Below, one piece after another: positions 388 to 11,475 of a stretch of 11,475 nucleotides of DNA (position 1 is the first letter of the stretch; each line of letters begins with the position of its first letter). The translations under genes and the position numbers were made by a program. The notes below the pieces were generated by a model. The model had not been told where the DNA came from. It was given only the letters and a program-made list of their open reading frames with translations, and ran no database searches. Origin of the DNA: a bacterium (GTDB lineage: Bacteria; Spirochaetota; UBA4802; UBA5550); assembly GCA_024224995.1 (NCBI GenBank), contig JAAENB010000516.1, positions 1 through 11,475 on the forward strand, given 5' to 3'.

Positions 388-1638
388 ATGAGACAGTATA
401 TACTATCCCTGTTATTAATTTTTTCCCTGGTAGGGGGAGTCTTTATCTTTAGCGCTGTTAGCAAAGAAAAAGGTCTTCGCTATCCAATCGTTGATACCAA
501 CCAGAGTCTCTGTTATAACTCAAGGATGAAAATTTCCTGTCCGGAAAAAACTACAGCTTTTTACGGTCAGGATGCCCAGTATAACGGGATTCAGCCGGAC
601 TATACCGACAACGGCAACGGCACTATTACCGACAAAAATACAGGACTCATGTGGCAAAAAGATCCCGGAAAAAAGATGACATACCGGCAGGCGCTCGCCC
701 GGGTAAAGGGCTTTAAACTCGCGGGATACGGCGACTGGCGCCTTCCCACGATCAAAGAACTGTATTCACTTATTCTATTCAGCGGAATGGATGTGGACCC
801 GCGAAGCTCCCGGGCTCCAAAGAATTTACAGCCTTTTATTAATAACAAATATTTTAAATTCAAATACGGCAGCCGGGAAGACGGTGAGCGGATCATTGAC
901 TCTCAATATCTTTCCGCTACCAAATATGTCAGTTTTACCATGGGCAGGGATGAAACGGTCTTTGGCGTGAATTTCGCAGACGGCAGGATCAAAGGCTACC
1001 CAATACGGGATCCCCGGAGAAGGAGCGGGAAAAAGTTCGCGGTATTGTACGTTCGGGGAAACCCCCAATACGGAAAGAATAACTTTAAAGACAACAAAGA
1101 CGGCACTATTACGGACAACGCCACCGGGCTTACGTGGATGAAGGTCGACAGCGGGCATCTTCGCGCGGGCTCTAAAAAAAACGGGAAACTTGACTGGTTA
1201 GAAGCGCTGCAATGGGCGGAAAATCTTACTTACGCCAAACACTCGGACTGGCGGCTTCCCAATGCCAAAGAACTCCAGAGCATTGTAGATTATTCCCGGT
1301 CTCCCGATACCACAAAGTCGGCAGCCATAGACCCGGTTTTTCAAGTCTCTTCTATTAAAGATGAAAGGGGAAAGAAGAATTATTCAAATTATTGGACCGG
1401 CACAACCCATGCCCGGCTCCATGGCGGAGAAACTGCGGTATATGTAGCCTTTGGATCTTCTCTCGGCTGGATGCGGCCGCCCTGGGGAGGAAAGCGCAAT
1501 CTTCTTGATGTTCATGGAGCCGGTTCCCAGCGCAGTGACCCCAAGGTAGGAAACCCGGAAGAGTACCCATACGGCAGGGGGCCCCAGGGGGATGTGATTC
1601 GTATATATAATCATGTGCGATGTGTTCGCGGCGGTTAG
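388..1638 (+). CDS. Exported protein with two DUF1566 (Lcl C-terminal) domains
   Basis: The 416-residue protein begins with a hydrophobic segment (residues 4-24) typical of a signal peptide or N-terminal anchor, so it probably acts outside the cytoplasm. Two tandem DUF1566 domains follow. The first spans about 71-224, with DNGNGTITD, TGLMWQ, DWRLPTIKEL (116-125) and FADGR. The second spans about 235-415, with DGTITDNATGLTW, DWRLPNAKEL (287-296), NYWTGTT (334-340) and the closing VRCVRG. The family is related to the C-terminal domain of Legionella Lcl, a collagen/glycan-binding adhesin, and to formylglycine-enzyme-like folds. Binding of extracellular ligands is inference and no catalytic role is visible. 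The ATG has AAGGAG six bases upstream. The gene stands alone and is bracketed by copies of one repeat at 111-165 and 1638-1697. Confidence 0.88.
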   Translation: MRQYILSLLLIFSLVGGVFIFSAVSKEKGLRYPIVDTNQSLCYNSRMKISCPEKTTAFYGQDAQYNGIQPDYTDNGNGTITDKNTGLMWQKDPGKKMTYRQALARVKGFKLAGYGDWRLPTIKELYSLILFSGMDVDPRSSRAPKNLQPFINNKYFKFKYGSREDGERIIDSQYLSATKYVSFTMGRDETVFGVNFADGRIKGYPIRDPRRRSGKKFAVLYVRGNPQYGKNNFKDNKDGTITDNATGLTWMKVDSGHLRAGSKKNGKLDWLEALQWAENLTYAKHSDWRLPNAKELQSIVDYSRSPDTTKSAAIDPVFQVSSIKDERGKKNYSNYWTGTTHARLHGGETAVYVAFGSSLGWMRPPWGGKRNLLDVHGAGSQRSDPKVGNPEEYPYGRGPQGDVIRIYNHVRCVRGG

Positions 1639-3264: not shown

Positions 3265-4464
3265 CTACTGTAATCTTTTAATACTTCCTTCAATGATCTC
3301 AAAAACCCGGTGCCCGGCAGGAAACAGGCCTTTGAACTGCTCTCTGGCCAGTTCGTAGTTTTTTTTGCTTTCTAACGGTTTTTTTTGCAGGTAGTATATT
3401 TCCGCAGTATAGAAATAGAGGTTGCCGGAGATCTCTTTATCCTTTGCGTGTTCTTTCATTTGTGATTTGAAAAACAGGAGAAGATGGTCAAGTTTTTTAT
3501 AATGGAGGTGGCTCTTAACAAGGTCGTCATATACCTTTAGATTACGGGGATTTGTATTAAATAGTTTTTTCCTTGAGGAGCTTACTTTGTCTTCTTTTTG
3601 TAACTTGAATTCGTATTCTAAGATGTTGAGCAGGTTGTCGTAATTATTGCTCATTACGGTGTCCGCAAGTAGAAAATACCGGTACGCATTATTATCGTCC
3701 TTTTGTTTGTAGTAAATATATCCCAATAAACGTGCGGAATCATATTTATACTGTTTCTGCCCGGGATTGGCGTACATCTCAAATGCTTTTTTCACGCAAG
3801 GGACAGCCTGTTCCAGCTGGTTTGTAACATAGTATACTCGTCCCAGGTTGAAATTCGTTCGGGGATTGTCCGGTTCAACAGCAAGAGCTTTTTTATAGAA
3901 GAGTATCGCATTATCATAGTCACGGTTATAGTTGTACCCATTTGCTATATAATTTAACGTTAAACAATCAAATTCTCCATGCTCGTACGCGGTGATGAGA
4001 AGTTTTTGATACTTGGGTATAATCTCTTCAGATGCTCGAAATCGTTGAGAATAATCATAATAATAAATTCCAAGACTCTTTTGCAGCTTATAATTTTTGG
4101 GATACTTTTTTATTAATGGCTCATAGAGTGCCGGAATATCGAGCGAGATCATGGCGTATGAACCGGTTGGGCTTTGTCTCAGGCCCATAATTGACTCATC
4201 CCCATTAAGATCTTTCAGGGCAAATAGCTGATGATTGATGCTTTGAACAAAGTACGCAAGTACCAGCTCTGTTTTTGCAATAACAATGGCTGGTTTGCTG
4301 TTGTTTTTGTCGTATCCGGACAGTACGGTAAAGGCTGTTTCATATTTTCGTTGTTTTATTAAATCATTTGCTTTTGCGATTATCTTTTTATCGTCATCGG
4401 CAAAAACAATAGATGAAACAGAGAGCAGTAGTGTGATAACTGTTAAGAACGGGTACTTTTTCAT
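3265..4464 (-). CDS. Exported TPR-repeat protein
   Basis: The 399-residue protein has a clear signal peptide (residues 1-22, KK then a hydrophobic core ending VFA) with probable cleavage before ADDDKK at residue 22/23, so it is likely periplasmic. Tetratricopeptide repeats are best seen at about 166-199 (AILFYKKALAVEP) and 200-232 (NLGRVYYVTNQLEQA); weaker helix pairs lie near 242-270 and 345-375. TPR proteins scaffold protein-protein contacts, and no enzyme domain is present. The ATG has GGAGAT upstream. The gene is divergent from the Na/Pi cotransporter-like gene and lies upstream of the crotonase pair on the same strand, but the 151-bp gap holding an operator suggests separate transcription. 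The partner is unknown. Confidence 0.82.
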   Translation of the reverse strand: MKKYPFLTVITLLLSVSSIVFADDDKKIIAKANDLIKQRKYETAFTVLSGYDKNNSKPAIVIAKTELVLAYFVQSINHQLFALKDLNGDESIMGLRQSPTGSYAMISLDIPALYEPLIKKYPKNYKLQKSLGIYYYDYSQRFRASEEIIPKYQKLLITAYEHGEFDCLTLNYIANGYNYNRDYDNAILFYKKALAVEPDNPRTNFNLGRVYYVTNQLEQAVPCVKKAFEMYANPGQKQYKYDSARLLGYIYYKQKDDNNAYRYFLLADTVMSNNYDNLLNILEYEFKLQKEDKVSSSRKKLFNTNPRNLKVYDDLVKSHLHYKKLDHLLLFFKSQMKEHAKDKEISGNLYFYTAEIYYLQKKPLESKKNYELAREQFKGLFPAGHRVFEIIEGSIKRLQ

Positions 4465-4549
4465 GAAAAGATCTCCAATTGATATGTGATTAATTCATAT
4501 ACAAAATAGAAGCAGTATTTTGAAAAGAATAAAATAAAAAAAGTGTGGG

Positions 4550-4561
4550 GACAAATTTGTC
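4550..4561. promoter_or_regulatory. 12-bp perfect palindrome in a divergent intergenic region
   Basis: GACAAATTTGTC reads identically on both strands and lies between the divergent TPR and cotransporter-like genes (gap 4465-4667). It could bind a dimeric regulator, but a 12-bp AT-centred palindrome can also arise by chance, and no regulator is nearby. Confidence 0.25.
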
Positions 4562-4667
4562 TTGTGAAAAGCCTTTCCGGAATGGAATTGAGTGCTTATT
4601 TCGCTTGACGGAACGGCTTGTTTGCCTTGTGTTACGCTCATATATTTTTTTATCGAGGAGAAATTTT

Positions 4668-5123
4668 GTGCAATATTACTATCTAGTTGCCGGTGCGGTT
4701 CTTTTAGTGCTGGGGATGCATATAGCAACTAACACCATGCGAAAAGTTGCGGGAGCCCGGACCCGGGCAGGGTTCTCAAACATGACAAAGAACAGGTTTC
4801 TTGGAGCCTTTGTTGGTCAAACAATTACGGCAAATATCGCTGTAATGGGCTGCTCTGTTGAAGCCAGGAGCGCTGCGCGGGTTCATTTTCTTTTTAACCT
4901 TCTGGGAGCTCTCTGGGGGCTTGCCGCGCTTCGGCTGCTTCTGCCGCTTGTGGACTACCTGGTTCCGGGAGATTGCAATAATCCTGAGGCAGTCCCTGAT
5001 CATATGGCTGCCTTTATTGTGGTTTTTTATTGCATCAATGCAGTTCTCTTTTTACCTTTCAGGGAACAATTGGCGAAACTGGCGCGAATGCTGGTTCCTT
5101 TTAAAAACAGGGGGCTGAACTGA
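4668..5123 (+). CDS. Na/Pi-cotransporter (NptA/YjbB-like) protein lacking its central transport core
   Basis: I place the start at GTG 4668 because GAGGAG lies seven bases upstream (4655-4660); the frame is open further upstream without a good site. The resulting 151-residue protein begins like a PF02690 Na/phosphate cotransporter, with a hydrophobic helix, LGMHIATNTMRKVAG, then TKNRFLGAFVG (40-50). It then jumps directly to sequence normally found after the second repeat: TITANIAVMGCSVEARSAARVHFLFN (52-77). Full-length members carry two QSSS motifs that form the ion/phosphate site and several helices between these points, and all of that is missing. An in-frame internal deletion with its seam near Gly50 is the simplest reading. 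The reading frame is intact, so it may be expressed, but transport activity is unlikely. It is either a remnant or a reduced protein with a new role. Confidence 0.65.
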   Translation: MQYYYLVAGAVLLVLGMHIATNTMRKVAGARTRAGFSNMTKNRFLGAFVGQTITANIAVMGCSVEARSAARVHFLFNLLGALWGLAALRLLLPLVDYLVPGDCNNPEAVPDHMAAFIVVFYCINAVLFLPFREQLAKLARMLVPFKNRGLN

Positions 5124-5168
5124 TTGATACCTTTTTGAATAAATAGCTTGAAAAAAATGAAATAAAAC

Positions 5169-5197
5169 TTTACAATACATCAATAATGATATACTAT
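5169..5197 (+). promoter_or_regulatory. Candidate promoter of the STAS gene
   Basis: TTTACA at 5169-5174 and TACTAT at 5192-5197 are spaced 17 bp, with other AT-rich -10 options nearby (for example TATACT at 15 bp). The region is very AT-rich, so chance matches are likely. Confidence 0.25.
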
Positions 5198-5242
5198 AAA
5201 ATATATAAAGCCATATTATCGGTTATAGTATAGGAAAATAGA

Positions 5243-5542
5243 ATGCATATTGAAACAATCGAAGATGACACAACAGTTACTTTTGTTATAAAAGATGACT
5301 TTATTATGGAGTATATGACCGATTTCAACAAAAAAGTCATCGCAGTGGCACGCGATATTACAAAGGATATCGCCCTGGATCTTTCTAATGTCTATTATAT
5401 TGATTCTGCCGGTATGGGTGGAATAATCAGCCTATATCATGTGCAAAAAAAAAAGGGAAAGAAACTCACAATCGACAAATTCAGTGATGAAGTGAAAAAT
5501 ATTATAAATATCAATGTATTTTCCGAATTATTTAACCTCTAA
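5243..5542 (+). CDS. STAS-domain protein (anti-sigma factor antagonist-like)
   Basis: The 99 residues make up a single STAS domain: a beta strand with VTFVIKDDF, a helix, then ALDLSNVYYIDSAGMGGI. Ser55 in the DSAG motif is the position phosphorylated in SpoIIAA-type antagonists by a partner-switch kinase. In that family the unphosphorylated form binds the kinase/anti-sigma protein and releases a sigma factor or other target. No anti-sigma kinase or PP2C phosphatase gene is in the window, so its partner is elsewhere. The ATG has AGGA seven bases upstream. It follows the cotransporter-like gene by 119 bp and probably has its own promoter. Family assignment is firm; the pathway is unknown. Confidence 0.85.
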   Translation: MHIETIEDDTTVTFVIKDDFIMEYMTDFNKKVIAVARDITKDIALDLSNVYYIDSAGMGGIISLYHVQKKKGKKLTIDKFSDEVKNIININVFSELFNL

Positions 5543-5834
5543 GCACTATTCCTCTTAATTTAGATTTTTTTTAAAAATTTTACCCTTTTGTCCCCCTTTT
5601 CCATACTTAAATTATATAAACAAAGATGAACAGTGTAGTCTTTTGTGTGCATGTCTGTCTCATCCCAATACATTTTGTTAATATATTATATGGAGTCTCT
5701 CCTGAGATACGGAGCAATATTATTTATACTGGCAGTACAAGCGGGAGCAGCGCCCAGGCATACGCAATTTTCAATCAAAGCGGCTCAGCTCCCATTGATG
5801 AAGAGAATACAATTTATTAAAAAAGGAAAAACAA

Positions 5835-8018: not shown

Positions 8019-8543
8019 ATGAACTACATATTTAAAAGTGTGGTAAAACTATGTCTGGTATTGTTTTTTGTTCTCGGGCTGTGTCTTGTTGGTTGTGACC
8101 AGGAAGAACCGGGTGACGACACCTGTGCAGCGGATCTCGGTTTGTCTGAGTATAATGGTACATGGTCATATGATGACCATGATGGGGTAATCTCAATCAG
8201 CAATGACGGCGGATGCTGGACGCTTCAAAATTATGAGGCCTCCGGAGTAGACGCAGATGCTTTATTTGAAGCAAGTCTTCATGGGACTGTAACAATTACT
8301 AATAATTCCGTTACTGAAATTAGCGGGCAAAGCATCACGTATCATGAGTTTGAACTTAGCTGCTTAAGCAATTGCGGTACATTTACCGGGGACTTACGCG
8401 CCACCCGGTATATTGACACCGTGAATTTTTCTCCTGCCATAAAAAAATACGGCAGGATCAATCCCGATTCCCTGGGAAACCATGTTCTGGATATTCTTGA
8501 CGCCTCGAATATGTCCGACCTGGACCCCTATACGAAGCAGTAG
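8019..8543 (+). CDS. Predicted lipoprotein of unknown function
   Basis: The 174-residue product has a lipoprotein signal: Lys residues, a long hydrophobic core (residues 8-22), then the lipobox LVGC with Cys26 as the acylated residue. The residue after Cys is Asp, which in enterobacteria favours retention in the inner membrane; that rule may not hold in this organism. The mature part is acidic and rich in Asn, Thr and Gly, with alternating strands such as GTWSYDDHDGVISISND and GTVTITNNSV, suggesting a small beta-sandwich or barrel of the lipocalin-like type. Extra cysteines occur at 36, 67, 115 and 118, approximately, and could form disulfides. No named family is recognised. The ribosome binding site is a G-run three bases before the ATG, next to the right arm of the perfect inverted repeat. 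Confidence 0.75.
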   Translation: MNYIFKSVVKLCLVLFFVLGLCLVGCDQEEPGDDTCAADLGLSEYNGTWSYDDHDGVISISNDGGCWTLQNYEASGVDADALFEASLHGTVTITNNSVTEISGQSITYHEFELSCLSNCGTFTGDLRATRYIDTVNFSPAIKKYGRINPDSLGNHVLDILDASNMSDLDPYTKQ

Positions 8544-8550
8544 TTCTTCC

Positions 8551-8596
8551 CGGACCGTTACCCGGAAACAAACCCTTTTCCCAGGGCAACGGTCCG
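8551..8596. repeat. Inverted repeat at the convergent gene ends
   Basis: CGGACCGTT (8551-8559) and AACGGTCCG (8588-8596) are perfect 9-bp inverted arms with a 28-nt centre. They span the stop codon of the LRR-EF-Tu gene, 8 bases beyond the stop of the convergent lipoprotein gene. No T-run follows on either side, so terminator activity is uncertain. Part of the repeat is coding sequence. Confidence 0.45.
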
Positions 8597-10390
8597 TCCA
8601 TTATCTCTCAACACGAATTTGAAATCGTTTAATATCACAAGCGGGAAGTATAAAACGATATCGACATTAATTGTCTCTCCCGGATGAGCAATGGTGTTTT
8701 CCGGCAGCAGTATTGCGGCCGGAGTCTCCCCGCTAAGAGAAAACAACCAGGGAGTATACCCGCTTTTAAAAGAAGTATTTCTTCCTCCTTCTGCGGTACT
8801 CAGAATAGTGAGCTGTGCCCTTATTTTTTTATGGGCCTCAAATGTAGAAGGCCGGGTAATAAGCTCGCCCCGTTTTACTTTCCAGGGTTTAACATTCGCC
8901 AGAAATATTCCCACCTGCTCTCCGGCAACAGCTTTTTCTACCGTGCCATGAGCGATTTCCATATCCTTGATCATTGCCTCACTGGGGCTTCCATACCCGG
9001 TTAGTTCAATTGTTTCTCCAACGCTTACGGTTCCCGTTAAAATTCTACCGGTGATAATAGTACCCCTTTCCGATGAACGGGAATGGCTGTATCTATTATG
9101 AATGGGCAAAACCAGGGGTGAAGCCGGGTCATGCTCCGGAATTGGCACGGTTCTTTCGATAGTATCTATTAGCTGAAGTATGGCGTCTTTTCCTCCCGGC
9201 GAGTCATCGAGAGAAAGAGCTTTTAAGGCCGATCCAAAAACGAAAGAGGTCTTCTTAGGCGTAAATCCGTATAAATCGCAGAGTTCTTTTATTTCCGAAA
9301 GTATCCCTTTCCTGAGAGCGGGCGATTCGCCAATAGTATCGCATTTATTAATAAACACAATAAGGTATTCAACTCCCATCCACCCGGCAAGAAGAAGGTG
9401 TTCCCTGGTTTGTTCCCCGCATCCTTCATCGGCTGCTACAACAAGTATGGCCGCGTCCATTCGCGCCGTTCCAACAAGCATGTTTTTAACATAATCTGCA
9501 TGACCGGGGCAGTCGAAGTGGGTATACTCGCGTTTTTTTGAGGAATACGTAATCGATTTTAAATAGATGCTAATGCCTCGCATGTGCTCATCCGAATGAA
9601 TATCAATTTCACGAAAAGAGGGGTATAGAGAATTGCTCTGTTCTGCCAGAACCTTGCATATTGCCGCAGTGAGCGTGGTCTTGCCATGATCTATATGGCC
9701 AATAGTTCCTATTGTCATGTGCGGTTTGTCTCGGGAATACCGCTGATTCAGGTAATTTACAGGAGGGATGGGAGACATGTATTCATGACTATACTCCTGG
9801 TAAAAAAAATTTATTTTGGGAAAATCTTTTTTTGAAAGTGAGCTCCTCGCCGGGTTGTGAGTGCAGTTTAACGATGCCAGCTGCGGTAACTGTTTTAGCG
9901 GTTCAAAGGATTGTATTTTGTTATGCGTTGCCAACAGAAATCTGAGCGTTGTAAGAGTGCAAAGCGGCGAAAGATCTTCTATGCCGCAATATTCGCAATT
10001 CAGTTCAACCAGGTTTTCCAGGTTTTGTAAGAGCGTAATATTTTGTAATTGATAATTGCATCCTATATTTAATTTTTCCAGGTTCACCAGTCTTTCTATT
10101 CCCGCCGGGTTGTTTATATTATTATGGCTTAGATTGAGATACCGCAGATGGGATAGTGAACCGATAACGCGAATATCCTCAATTTCATTACGAGATACAT
10201 TGAGAGAAAGCAGGTTTGTGCAGTACTGTAGTCCCTCCAGGTTTTTTATCTTAGGATAAAAGGATACGGCATAGAGATGCCGTATCCTTTCAAGATCCCC
10301 GGTTGTGATCTCTTCGGATTTTTTTCCCGTTTCCTGCTCTATTGCTTTTCGCAATGATCCGTCAGGAACCAGGTTTGTAATGGATTTCAT
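8558..10390 (-). CDS. Leucine-rich repeat protein fused to a complete EF-Tu GTPase
   Basis: The 610-residue protein has three parts. Residues 7-42 (VPDGSLRKAIEQ, then ITTGDLERI) resemble the cap preceding internalin-like repeats. Residues 51-183 hold six ~22-residue SDS22/internalin-type leucine-rich repeats (LSLNVSRNEIED, LRYLNLSHNNINN and so on). After a linker, 222-610 is a full three-domain EF-Tu: P-loop GHIDHGKT (231-238), switch I RGISI (271-275, Ser where EF-Tu has Thr), DCPGH with the catalytic His297, NKCD (348-351), SAL (387-389), domain 2 RGTIITGRI (442-450), domain 3 GGRNTSF (535-541) and the NGRTVALGKG end. Normal EF-Tu is ~395 residues with no N-terminal domain, so this is not the housekeeping copy. 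GTP binding and hydrolysis are likely. Delivery of aminoacyl-tRNA is doubtful. The start lies 8 bases after the stop of the DUF4132 gene. Confidence 0.92.
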   Translation of the reverse strand: MKSITNLVPDGSLRKAIEQETGKKSEEITTGDLERIRHLYAVSFYPKIKNLEGLQYCTNLLSLNVSRNEIEDIRVIGSLSHLRYLNLSHNNINNPAGIERLVNLEKLNIGCNYQLQNITLLQNLENLVELNCEYCGIEDLSPLCTLTTLRFLLATHNKIQSFEPLKQLPQLASLNCTHNPARSSLSKKDFPKINFFYQEYSHEYMSPIPPVNYLNQRYSRDKPHMTIGTIGHIDHGKTTLTAAICKVLAEQSNSLYPSFREIDIHSDEHMRGISIYLKSITYSSKKREYTHFDCPGHADYVKNMLVGTARMDAAILVVAADEGCGEQTREHLLLAGWMGVEYLIVFINKCDTIGESPALRKGILSEIKELCDLYGFTPKKTSFVFGSALKALSLDDSPGGKDAILQLIDTIERTVPIPEHDPASPLVLPIHNRYSHSRSSERGTIITGRILTGTVSVGETIELTGYGSPSEAMIKDMEIAHGTVEKAVAGEQVGIFLANVKPWKVKRGELITRPSTFEAHKKIRAQLTILSTAEGGRNTSFKSGYTPWLFSLSGETPAAILLPENTIAHPGETINVDIVLYFPLVILNDFKFVLRDNGRTVALGKGFVSG

Positions 10391-10398
10391 TCCGCAGT

Positions 10399-11475
10399 TT
10401 ACCCTTCAGCTTCCCCGGCAATTATCGACAGGTCCAGCACTGTTTCGGAGTAAACAATATCCGGCACATCATCTATTTTTATGAGCCTTGAATCCTCTTC
10501 GTCCCCGGGCTCATCATAGTAATAGCTTCCGGTGTGGATGCTTCCTGCCGGAACAAAATAGAACTGTTTAAGACTTCCCGACATGTCTCCGTAGAACTGG
10601 ACGCCAACGTCCTCAACTTCAACAAAGACTTCAATTCCTGCGTGGGGAAAAATCTTCCGGTATCCGGACACGCCTCCCGCGTCTACAACGGAACCTCTCC
10701 GCCAGCCCAGGCGGTCAAAGGCGAATTTGGCGATTGTTTTCTTTTCGAACATCCAGTTGAATTTTTTTGTTTTCTCTTCTTCATCTTTTGCGAAAACCTT
10801 CCGGCCAAGCTGCCGTACTGGCTGGCTTACTTTTTTCTCCGTAAAGATTTCCGTCCAGGCGGCGATCTGTTCTTCCGTACAGTCAATGGGATGAACGAGC
10901 CCTATTTCGGGAATACTTTTTTCTTTTCGCATATCATAGGGCTTTGGCTGATGCATTCCCAAAAAGTTCCAGAAATCGGATTCCCAGTTTTTGTCTTGTA
11001 GTTTAATGGGATTCCCTGATGAGTTCACAAAGGTAATTTGCTCGCTTATGTGAAATGTTTCAAGCAGTTTGCCTTCGAAATATATTCCCCAGACAAGGCC
11101 TTTTCCAAAAGCATGCATAAGGGGATTATTCAGAAAAATATTCTCCCATTTTATTTTGTTCCATTTCCGCTGCGTTACCAGGTTCTGTTCAATAGTGGCC
11201 TTTTGCTGCTTTTTCGCGTCGGTGATCTCTTTTTTAAGTGTTTTGATGAGCTGTTTCTCCGCGTCCGACGCGGCTGCGGGAACGGACTTGATGACTTTGC
11301 CTTCTTCGCTCATGAATTTAAAGGCAAGATCATTGTCGATAAATCCCTTGTAGATCTTACCGCTAAAATCGAACTCCCGGAAACGTCCTGAAAAATCAAA
11401 ATCGGGAATAATAATATCGAGCAGTTCTTCTTCCGAGACTCCCCGTTCTTTTGCGAAGCCGGAAAAGGCCTCTTC
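10399..11475 (-). CDS. DUF4132 (MolR/YehI-like) protein, C-terminal 358 residues, partial
   Basis: The frame stays open to the right edge, so the true start lies outside the window; the Met at 11313 is internal. The visible part begins GVSEEELLDIIIPDF, which matches the stretch before the conserved core in DUF4132 proteins. A Lys/Gln-rich helix follows (74-96), then RKWNKIKWENIFLNNPL, GKGLVWGIY (LVWG at 127-130), TFHISEQITFVN, IGLVHPID (192-198), an AAW-EIF helix and QPVRQLGRKVF: the C-terminal DUF4132 signature in order. The family is usually a protein of around 1000 residues or more, represented by E. coli YehI/MolR, and often found with AAA+, VWA and SWIM proteins. Its biochemical function is not established. 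It is the upstream partner of the LRR-EF-Tu gene, with only 8 bp between them. Confidence 0.85.
   Translation of the reverse strand, partial: EEAFSGFAKERGVSEEELLDIIIPDFDFSGRFREFDFSGKIYKGFIDNDLAFKFMSEEGKVIKSVPAAASDAEKQLIKTLKKEITDAKKQQKATIEQNLVTQRKWNKIKWENIFLNNPLMHAFGKGLVWGIYFEGKLLETFHISEQITFVNSSGNPIKLQDKNWESDFWNFLGMHQPKPYDMRKEKSIPEIGLVHPIDCTEEQIAAWTEIFTEKKVSQPVRQLGRKVFAKDEEEKTKKFNWMFEKKTIAKFAFDRLGWRRGSVVDAGGVSGYRKIFPHAGIEVFVEVEDVGVQFYGDMSGSLKQFYFVPAGSIHTGSYYYDEPGDEEDSRLIKIDDVPDIVYSETVLDLSIIAGEAEG

Follow-up and report, generated by a model that had tools for sequence, protein, structure and literature searches.

A leucine-rich repeat domain joined to elongation factor Tu in a spirochaete reading frame: a candidate GTP switch beside a DUF4132 gene

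Elongation factor Tu (EF-Tu) is among the most constrained of bacterial proteins. According to passages of a 2015 survey, one clearly distinct EF-Tu-like subfamily had been named in bacteria (PMC4342817). Leucine-rich repeats (LRRs) are found with GTPase switches of other kinds, and the Roco proteins (LRR-Roc-COR; see also PMC6337361) and the LRR AP-GTPases have an N-terminal LRR and a GTPase switch within one chain, a passage of PMC8195603 describing LRR-GTPases built on AP-GTPase/COR. EF-Tu domains themselves appear in a predicted EACC1/caspase conflict system, where, in the relevant passages of its description, EF-Tu is one of as many as 50 variable domains that follow a caspase domain (PMC7159879). 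Here, we describe a gene from a bacterium of the Spirochaetota, carried on contig JAAENB010000516.1 of assembly GCA_024224995.1 (the whole stretch of 11,475 nucleotides is referred to as the window), in which LRRs precede a three-domain EF-Tu. The product, hereafter the fusion, may be an EF-Tu copy recruited as an LRR-gated GTP switch.

The fusion gene is located at 8558..10390 on the minus strand. From its ATG start it runs for 610 codons with no internal stop, and both Pfam and an AlphaFold2 model bear out the claim of an earlier note on this DNA that the LRRs and a three-domain EF-Tu lie in one uninterrupted frame. A Pfam search of the full protein returned LRR, GTP_EFTU, GTP_EFTU_D2 and GTP_EFTU_D3 matches, all above cut-off: LRR_4 and LRR_8 with best stretches at residues 147-185 and 56-92, GTP_EFTU at 222-414 (E-value 1.3e-46), GTP_EFTU_D2 at 443-512 and GTP_EFTU_D3 at 518-605, the three EF-Tu domains following one another in canonical order. 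Four NCBIfam EF-Tu models span the EF-Tu half (residues 216-605) almost wholly. Three NCBIfam internalin models scored 49-62 bits, below their cut-offs of 1050-1600. In the model, residues 1-192 (9815..10390) form a helical cap (4-35) and an LRR solenoid of seven strands spaced about 22 residues apart, beginning at 38, 62, 84, 106, 129, 151 and 173. A low-confidence linker follows at residues 193-213 (9752..9814), predicted to be disordered with a predicted local distance difference test (pLDDT) score below 50 at 193-211. Pfam, alignment and model then place the G domain at residues 214-414 (9149..9751), domain 2 at 421-514 (8849..9130) and domain 3 at 515-610 (8561..8848), all on the minus strand. 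Mean pLDDT is 85.5 for the EF-Tu half, and the LRR domain is also predicted confidently. This final model used an alignment with 18 LRR and 27 EF-Tu rows; with EF-Tu rows alone the LRR was unfolded at a pLDDT of about 30, and it was resolved once LRR rows were added. The LRR has a GC content of 41.9%, residues 184-215 one of 31.2% and EF-Tu one of 46.2%. On present evidence the LRR-EF-Tu architecture appears to be real and unusual, with one sequence known.

The GTPase had been named as EF-Tu beforehand, and Pfam, NCBIfam scores and a tree all agree. Against 31 canonical EF-Tu rows, the EF-Tu half shows 38-43% identity. The four EF-Tu models scored 348-365 bits against cut-offs of 449-522, the EF-1A models 172 and 144 bits, and the SelB model TIGR00475 141 bits, below its cut-off of 242.25. 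For TIGR00485, the housekeeping EF-Tu equivalog, the score of 347.6 bits is likewise below the cut-off of 522.4, and none of the 25 NCBIfam families listed for the fusion reached its own cut-off. In a tree of 46 rows (the query, 35 EF-Tu, 7 SelB and 3 CysN; the empty row L023 was excluded), the query joined the 35 EF-Tu rows with a Shimodaira-Hasegawa-like approximate likelihood ratio (SH-aLRT) support of 99, apart from SelB and CysN. An origin of the GTPase half in SelB or CysN is ruled out by the NCBIfam scores and the tree. Where the query belongs inside EF-Tu shifts with the choice of rows: in a 36-row tree it pairs with four rows named or looking mitochondrial, and when five mitochondrial-like rows were dropped it moved to P0006. 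Its end branch is 2.03 in the 46-row tree, where the median is 0.14, and is unstable, reaching 8.94 and 10 in further trees; the shifting place is as long branches behave. EF-Tu duplications were rejected as relatives, the top matches P0002, P0003 and P0004 being repeats of EF-Tu or its parts without LRR. Taken as a sequence, the fusion is probably no housekeeping factor.

We compared the EF-Tu half with a panel of 31 canonical rows, made up of 28 of the query's database matches plus three tuf genes taken from plasmid records. With domain borders that we set at 200 and 298 (E. coli gene numbering), 57 of the 75 panel-invariant positions of the G domain survive in the query, as do 17 of 31 for domain 2 and 13 of 18 for domain 3, while the lowest domain 2 value in a leave-one-out control over the 31 rows was 96.9%. 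The GTP-binding and hydrolysis motifs had been called intact, which is correct for the P-loop (231-238), DCPGH (293-297, including His84), NKCD (348-351) and SAL (387-389; all in fusion numbering), but not wholly so for switch I, where Thr61 (residue changes are given in mature E. coli EF-Tu numbering), conserved in all 31 panel rows, is Ser in the query (Ser274 of the fusion). Five changes absent from the panel, H66>S, E215>H, V226>I, F261>A and L277>F, affect sites that we take to line the pocket for the aminoacyl group and A76. Two more, E144>A and L148>G, fall outside panel variation and alter helix D at what is presumably the ribosomal stalk contact. Around the presumed EF-Ts site, D109, P111, M112 and P113 are altered and H19, Q114 and H118 are unchanged. 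Given the kept nucleotide motifs and the changed pocket sites, the nucleotide switch is apparently sound, and the ability to deliver ordinary aminoacyl-tRNA apparently impaired. Retention of the GTP switch alongside partial loss of the surface that receives the charged tRNA end suggests a translation factor turned signalling switch.

The likeliest reading, to which we give a probability of roughly 0.45, is that a duplicated or acquired EF-Tu copy came to stand behind an internalin/SDS22-type LRR and took on a new role in the cytoplasm as an LRR-gated GTP switch. The protein would bind and hydrolyse GTP. A ligand, most likely a protein, would be bound by the LRR, and this binding would move the EF-Tu module from one nucleotide-bound conformation (GTP or GDP) to the other. 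The active conformation would then act on a partner, for which the protein encoded just upstream, with a DUF4132 domain, is the likeliest candidate, perhaps in a stress or conflict role, and the fusion would no longer serve general elongation. Of the roles offered in the earlier note, we prefer a sensor-switch on sequence grounds, namely a preserved GTPase core next to an eroded domain 2, and favor less its other two, a translation-targeting effector and a decoy of the host EF-Tu.

The upstream DUF4132 gene lies at 10399..11475 on the minus strand (Pfam E-value 1.8e-33). It is truncated by the contig end to its C-terminal 358 codons, and is likely an operon partner, as the fusion begins 8 nucleotides downstream of it on the same strand. 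Passages from two of three open-licence papers that name DUF4132 state no function for it. We examined ten DUF4132 loci, from 3 of 18 plasmid-collection records and from all 7 places in 5 of 199 genomes belonging to the phylum of L002, one of the genome-contig matches described below. AAA+, DUF5682 and VWA genes accompany DUF4132 in four of the ten, as called from annotation at L015 and L016 and from Pfam at L045 and L049. The DUF4132 piece in the window is closest to L049 (E-value 1e-30) and L045 (4e-25), both in AAA+/DUF5682/VWA operons. In Leptospira interrogans, LRR, WGR and DUF4132 are described within one protein in passages of PMC11674859; this protein and the surroundings of the fusion make an LRR-DUF4132 partnership plausible. 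The link of EF-Tu to DUF4132 comes from this single contig. Among the ten DUF4132 loci, L015 (1215-8978 of an Iodobacter plasmid) has two DUF4132 genes with IS3 and IS200/IS605 transposase genes around and between them, and adjoins a type I restriction-modification gene. Genes of 138-139 codons stand upstream of long DUF4132-type open reading frames (ORFs) at L046 (4987-5406), L047 (14245-14661), L048 (5963-6379) and L050 (14182-14601). By eye they have a common MKxxxxVKxxGKRK-like start, slightly different in one, and these four seem to represent another type of DUF4132 locus.

Several observations weigh against an LRR-gated switch. The protein search found the fusion as one sequence on one contig, and neither it nor either neighbouring gene has a PADLOC match. 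No LRR or EF-Tu-like neighbour was detected in any of the ten DUF4132 loci (BLAST with both halves, E-value 0.001, ORFs of at least 120 codons), which argues against a general link between DUF4132 and EF-Tu. Within the protein, Thr61>Ser may weaken the switch. T228 and E259, which we also take to be pocket sites, are unchanged, and the differences F218>Y, R262>H and N273>Q, at further presumed pocket sites, are present in canonical rows too. K89, N90 and R288, presumably contacts to the tRNA 5'-phosphate, are retained. With these three residues and T228 and E259 kept, some RNA binding may remain, and some RNA or ribosome contact could persist.

The earlier note had proposed looking for the same architecture in other genomes, and no second LRR-EF-Tu protein was present among the matches listed for proteins, plasmids, phages and 149 genomes. 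The protein search scored the 8000 candidates sharing most words, and a distant fusion could be missed; LRR and EF-Tu Pfam domains occurred together in none of the other 119 matches listed (best 120 of 7996). A second protein search returned no such combination in the other 119 matches listed (120 of 149). Genome contigs gave two matches, L001 and L002, neither with both halves; L001 groups with CysN in the 46-row tree, and L002 is TypA/BipA-like by reading alone. Viral contigs gave no match to the fusion, and among the plasmid and phage matches listed (40 of 1269 records for plasmids, 20 of 84 for phages) none covers 80% of the query. In 149 genomes from the phylum of L002, no match listed starts before query residue 185, and those starting at residues 185 and 194 carry stop codons. 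Among the open-licence papers listed, no title or abstract opening describes an LRR-EF-Tu protein. The earlier statement that no described family is known to be built on EF-Tu calls for a qualification, given the EF-Tu domains in passages on the predicted conflict system (PMC7159879). Two other extended EF-Tu proteins were seen in these searches. P0069, of 630 amino acids and from one contig, has an IF2-like G domain (generic Pfam GTPase matches and reading) ahead of a complete EF-Tu, and P0070 is a 588-amino-acid EF-Tu in which domain 3 is matched twice and the tail resembles domains 2-3, with 3 member sequences on 2 contigs.

The alternative that survives best is that an LRR gene and an adjacent, divergent EF-Tu paralogue appear fused through a single miscalled base, or a genuine frameshift, in a run of eight T residues. 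A run scan places this T8 at 9802..9809 on the minus strand, in codons 194-196, exactly where the LRR fold ends, and a run of seven A residues precedes it. The paralogue would then have its start near Met205, preceded by an AGGAG at 9794..9798 (minus strand), which lies 7 nucleotides before an out-of-frame ATG and upstream of the in-frame Met205 and is, from sequence reading, a possible relic or active ribosome-binding site. That the linker between the halves is unstructured in the model, as the structure prediction called for in the earlier note found, and that the matches listed hold no second fusion would also fit two genes, but the matches listed hold no close standalone relative of this EF-Tu either. 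Other runs in the window argue against a base error. There are seven runs of at least 8, the junction included; those at 1174, 1843 and 5445 are inside Pfam matches (Lcl_C, DUF2569 and STAS, that to DUF2569 being below cut-off) that continue in frame, those at 3359 and 3379 sit within one uninterrupted ORF, and one, at 5565, is outside the ORFs used. With codon scores derived from nine further ORFs in the window, the observed frame came out best in all 18 scoring windows with starts at 187-238, spanning the linker, although the test is noisy because 5 of the 30 tested (starts 163-175, within the LRR) prefer a wrong frame. A sequencing error, named in the earlier note as grounds for rejecting the fusion, is made less likely by the other runs and the codon scores, whereas the T8 is still the fusion's weak point. 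We regard two separate genes as unlikely, yet the position of the T8 at the domain junction keeps this alternative alive.

More doubtful is an integrated decoy, in which the EF-Tu half would lure an attacker of EF-Tu (a phage protein, protease or toxin), with the alarm signalled by the LRR or the DUF4132 partner. The Gly59-Ile60 pair, which we take to be the cleavage site of the Lit protease, is kept in the query. Passages report that Lit, triggered by a phage capsid peptide, cleaves EF-Tu (PMC9712102), and one predicted conflict system includes EF-Tu domains (PMC7159879). However, about 40% identity and eroded surfaces would make for poor mimicry, a bait needs no kept GTPase motifs, and PADLOC gave no match. 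We are equally doubtful of a class of immune-type switch receptors, with the fusion as its first member, in which the LRR would sense an invader or stress ligand, an EF-Tu that has given up ordinary aminoacyl-tRNA would provide the switch and perhaps bait, and DUF4132 with AAA+/VWA would form the effector arm. A specialised translation factor, targeted by its LRR and delivering a special tRNA or acting on stalled ribosomes, is a slimmer prospect still, given the erosion of domain 2 and the helix D changes E144>A and L148>G at the presumed stalk contact. Least probable is a relic, an extra tuf copy caught behind an LRR and drifting without function, which the single instance and very long branch would suit but not the 610 codons without a stop or the spared nucleotide motifs.

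If the fusion is indeed an LRR-gated switch, an EF-Tu copy with its switch and without tRNA contacts would illustrate how a translation GTPase gets recruited for signalling, in parallel with the Ras-like domains of Roco proteins, and would offer a handle on DUF4132. Elsewhere in the window, a small convergent gene downstream of the fusion (8019-8543) has no NCBIfam or PADLOC match. In the region 4545-5542 (plus strand), a short ORF that matches a Na/Pi-cotransporter weakly, over 46 residues and below cut-off, is followed by a STAS-domain gene (Pfam), and the gene at 388-1638 (plus strand), with two Lcl_C matches (Pfam) and by eye a hydrophobic N-terminus, perhaps encodes a surface protein.

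Set beside known systems, the fusion has all three domains, the nucleotide motifs and the fold in common with bacterial EF-Tu (TIGR00485, including the divergent paralogues actEF-Tu and EF-Tu3), and differs in its N-terminal LRR, sub-cut-off score, Thr61>Ser and eroded domain 2. With the Roco proteins and LRR AP-GTPases it shares an N-terminal LRR joined to a GTPase switch, but, as had been pointed out from the start, its GTPase is EF-Tu in place of Roc, and Pfam found no Roc or COR match in the fusion at an E-value of 0.001. The EACC1/caspase system, likened here by description only, also sets an EF-Tu domain in a multidomain, non-translation context, whereas the fusion is without a caspase domain (no Pfam peptidase match) and has an LRR instead. 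With the AAA+/DUF5682/VWA/DUF4132 locus the window shares the DUF4132 component, upstream genes lying beyond the contig end. DUF4132 together with LRR is common to the window and the Leptospira LRR-WGR-DUF4132 protein, but EF-Tu is found only in the window, and in none of the ten DUF4132 loci compared. On present evidence, the fusion would be a variant among the LRR-GTPases, one built on EF-Tu.
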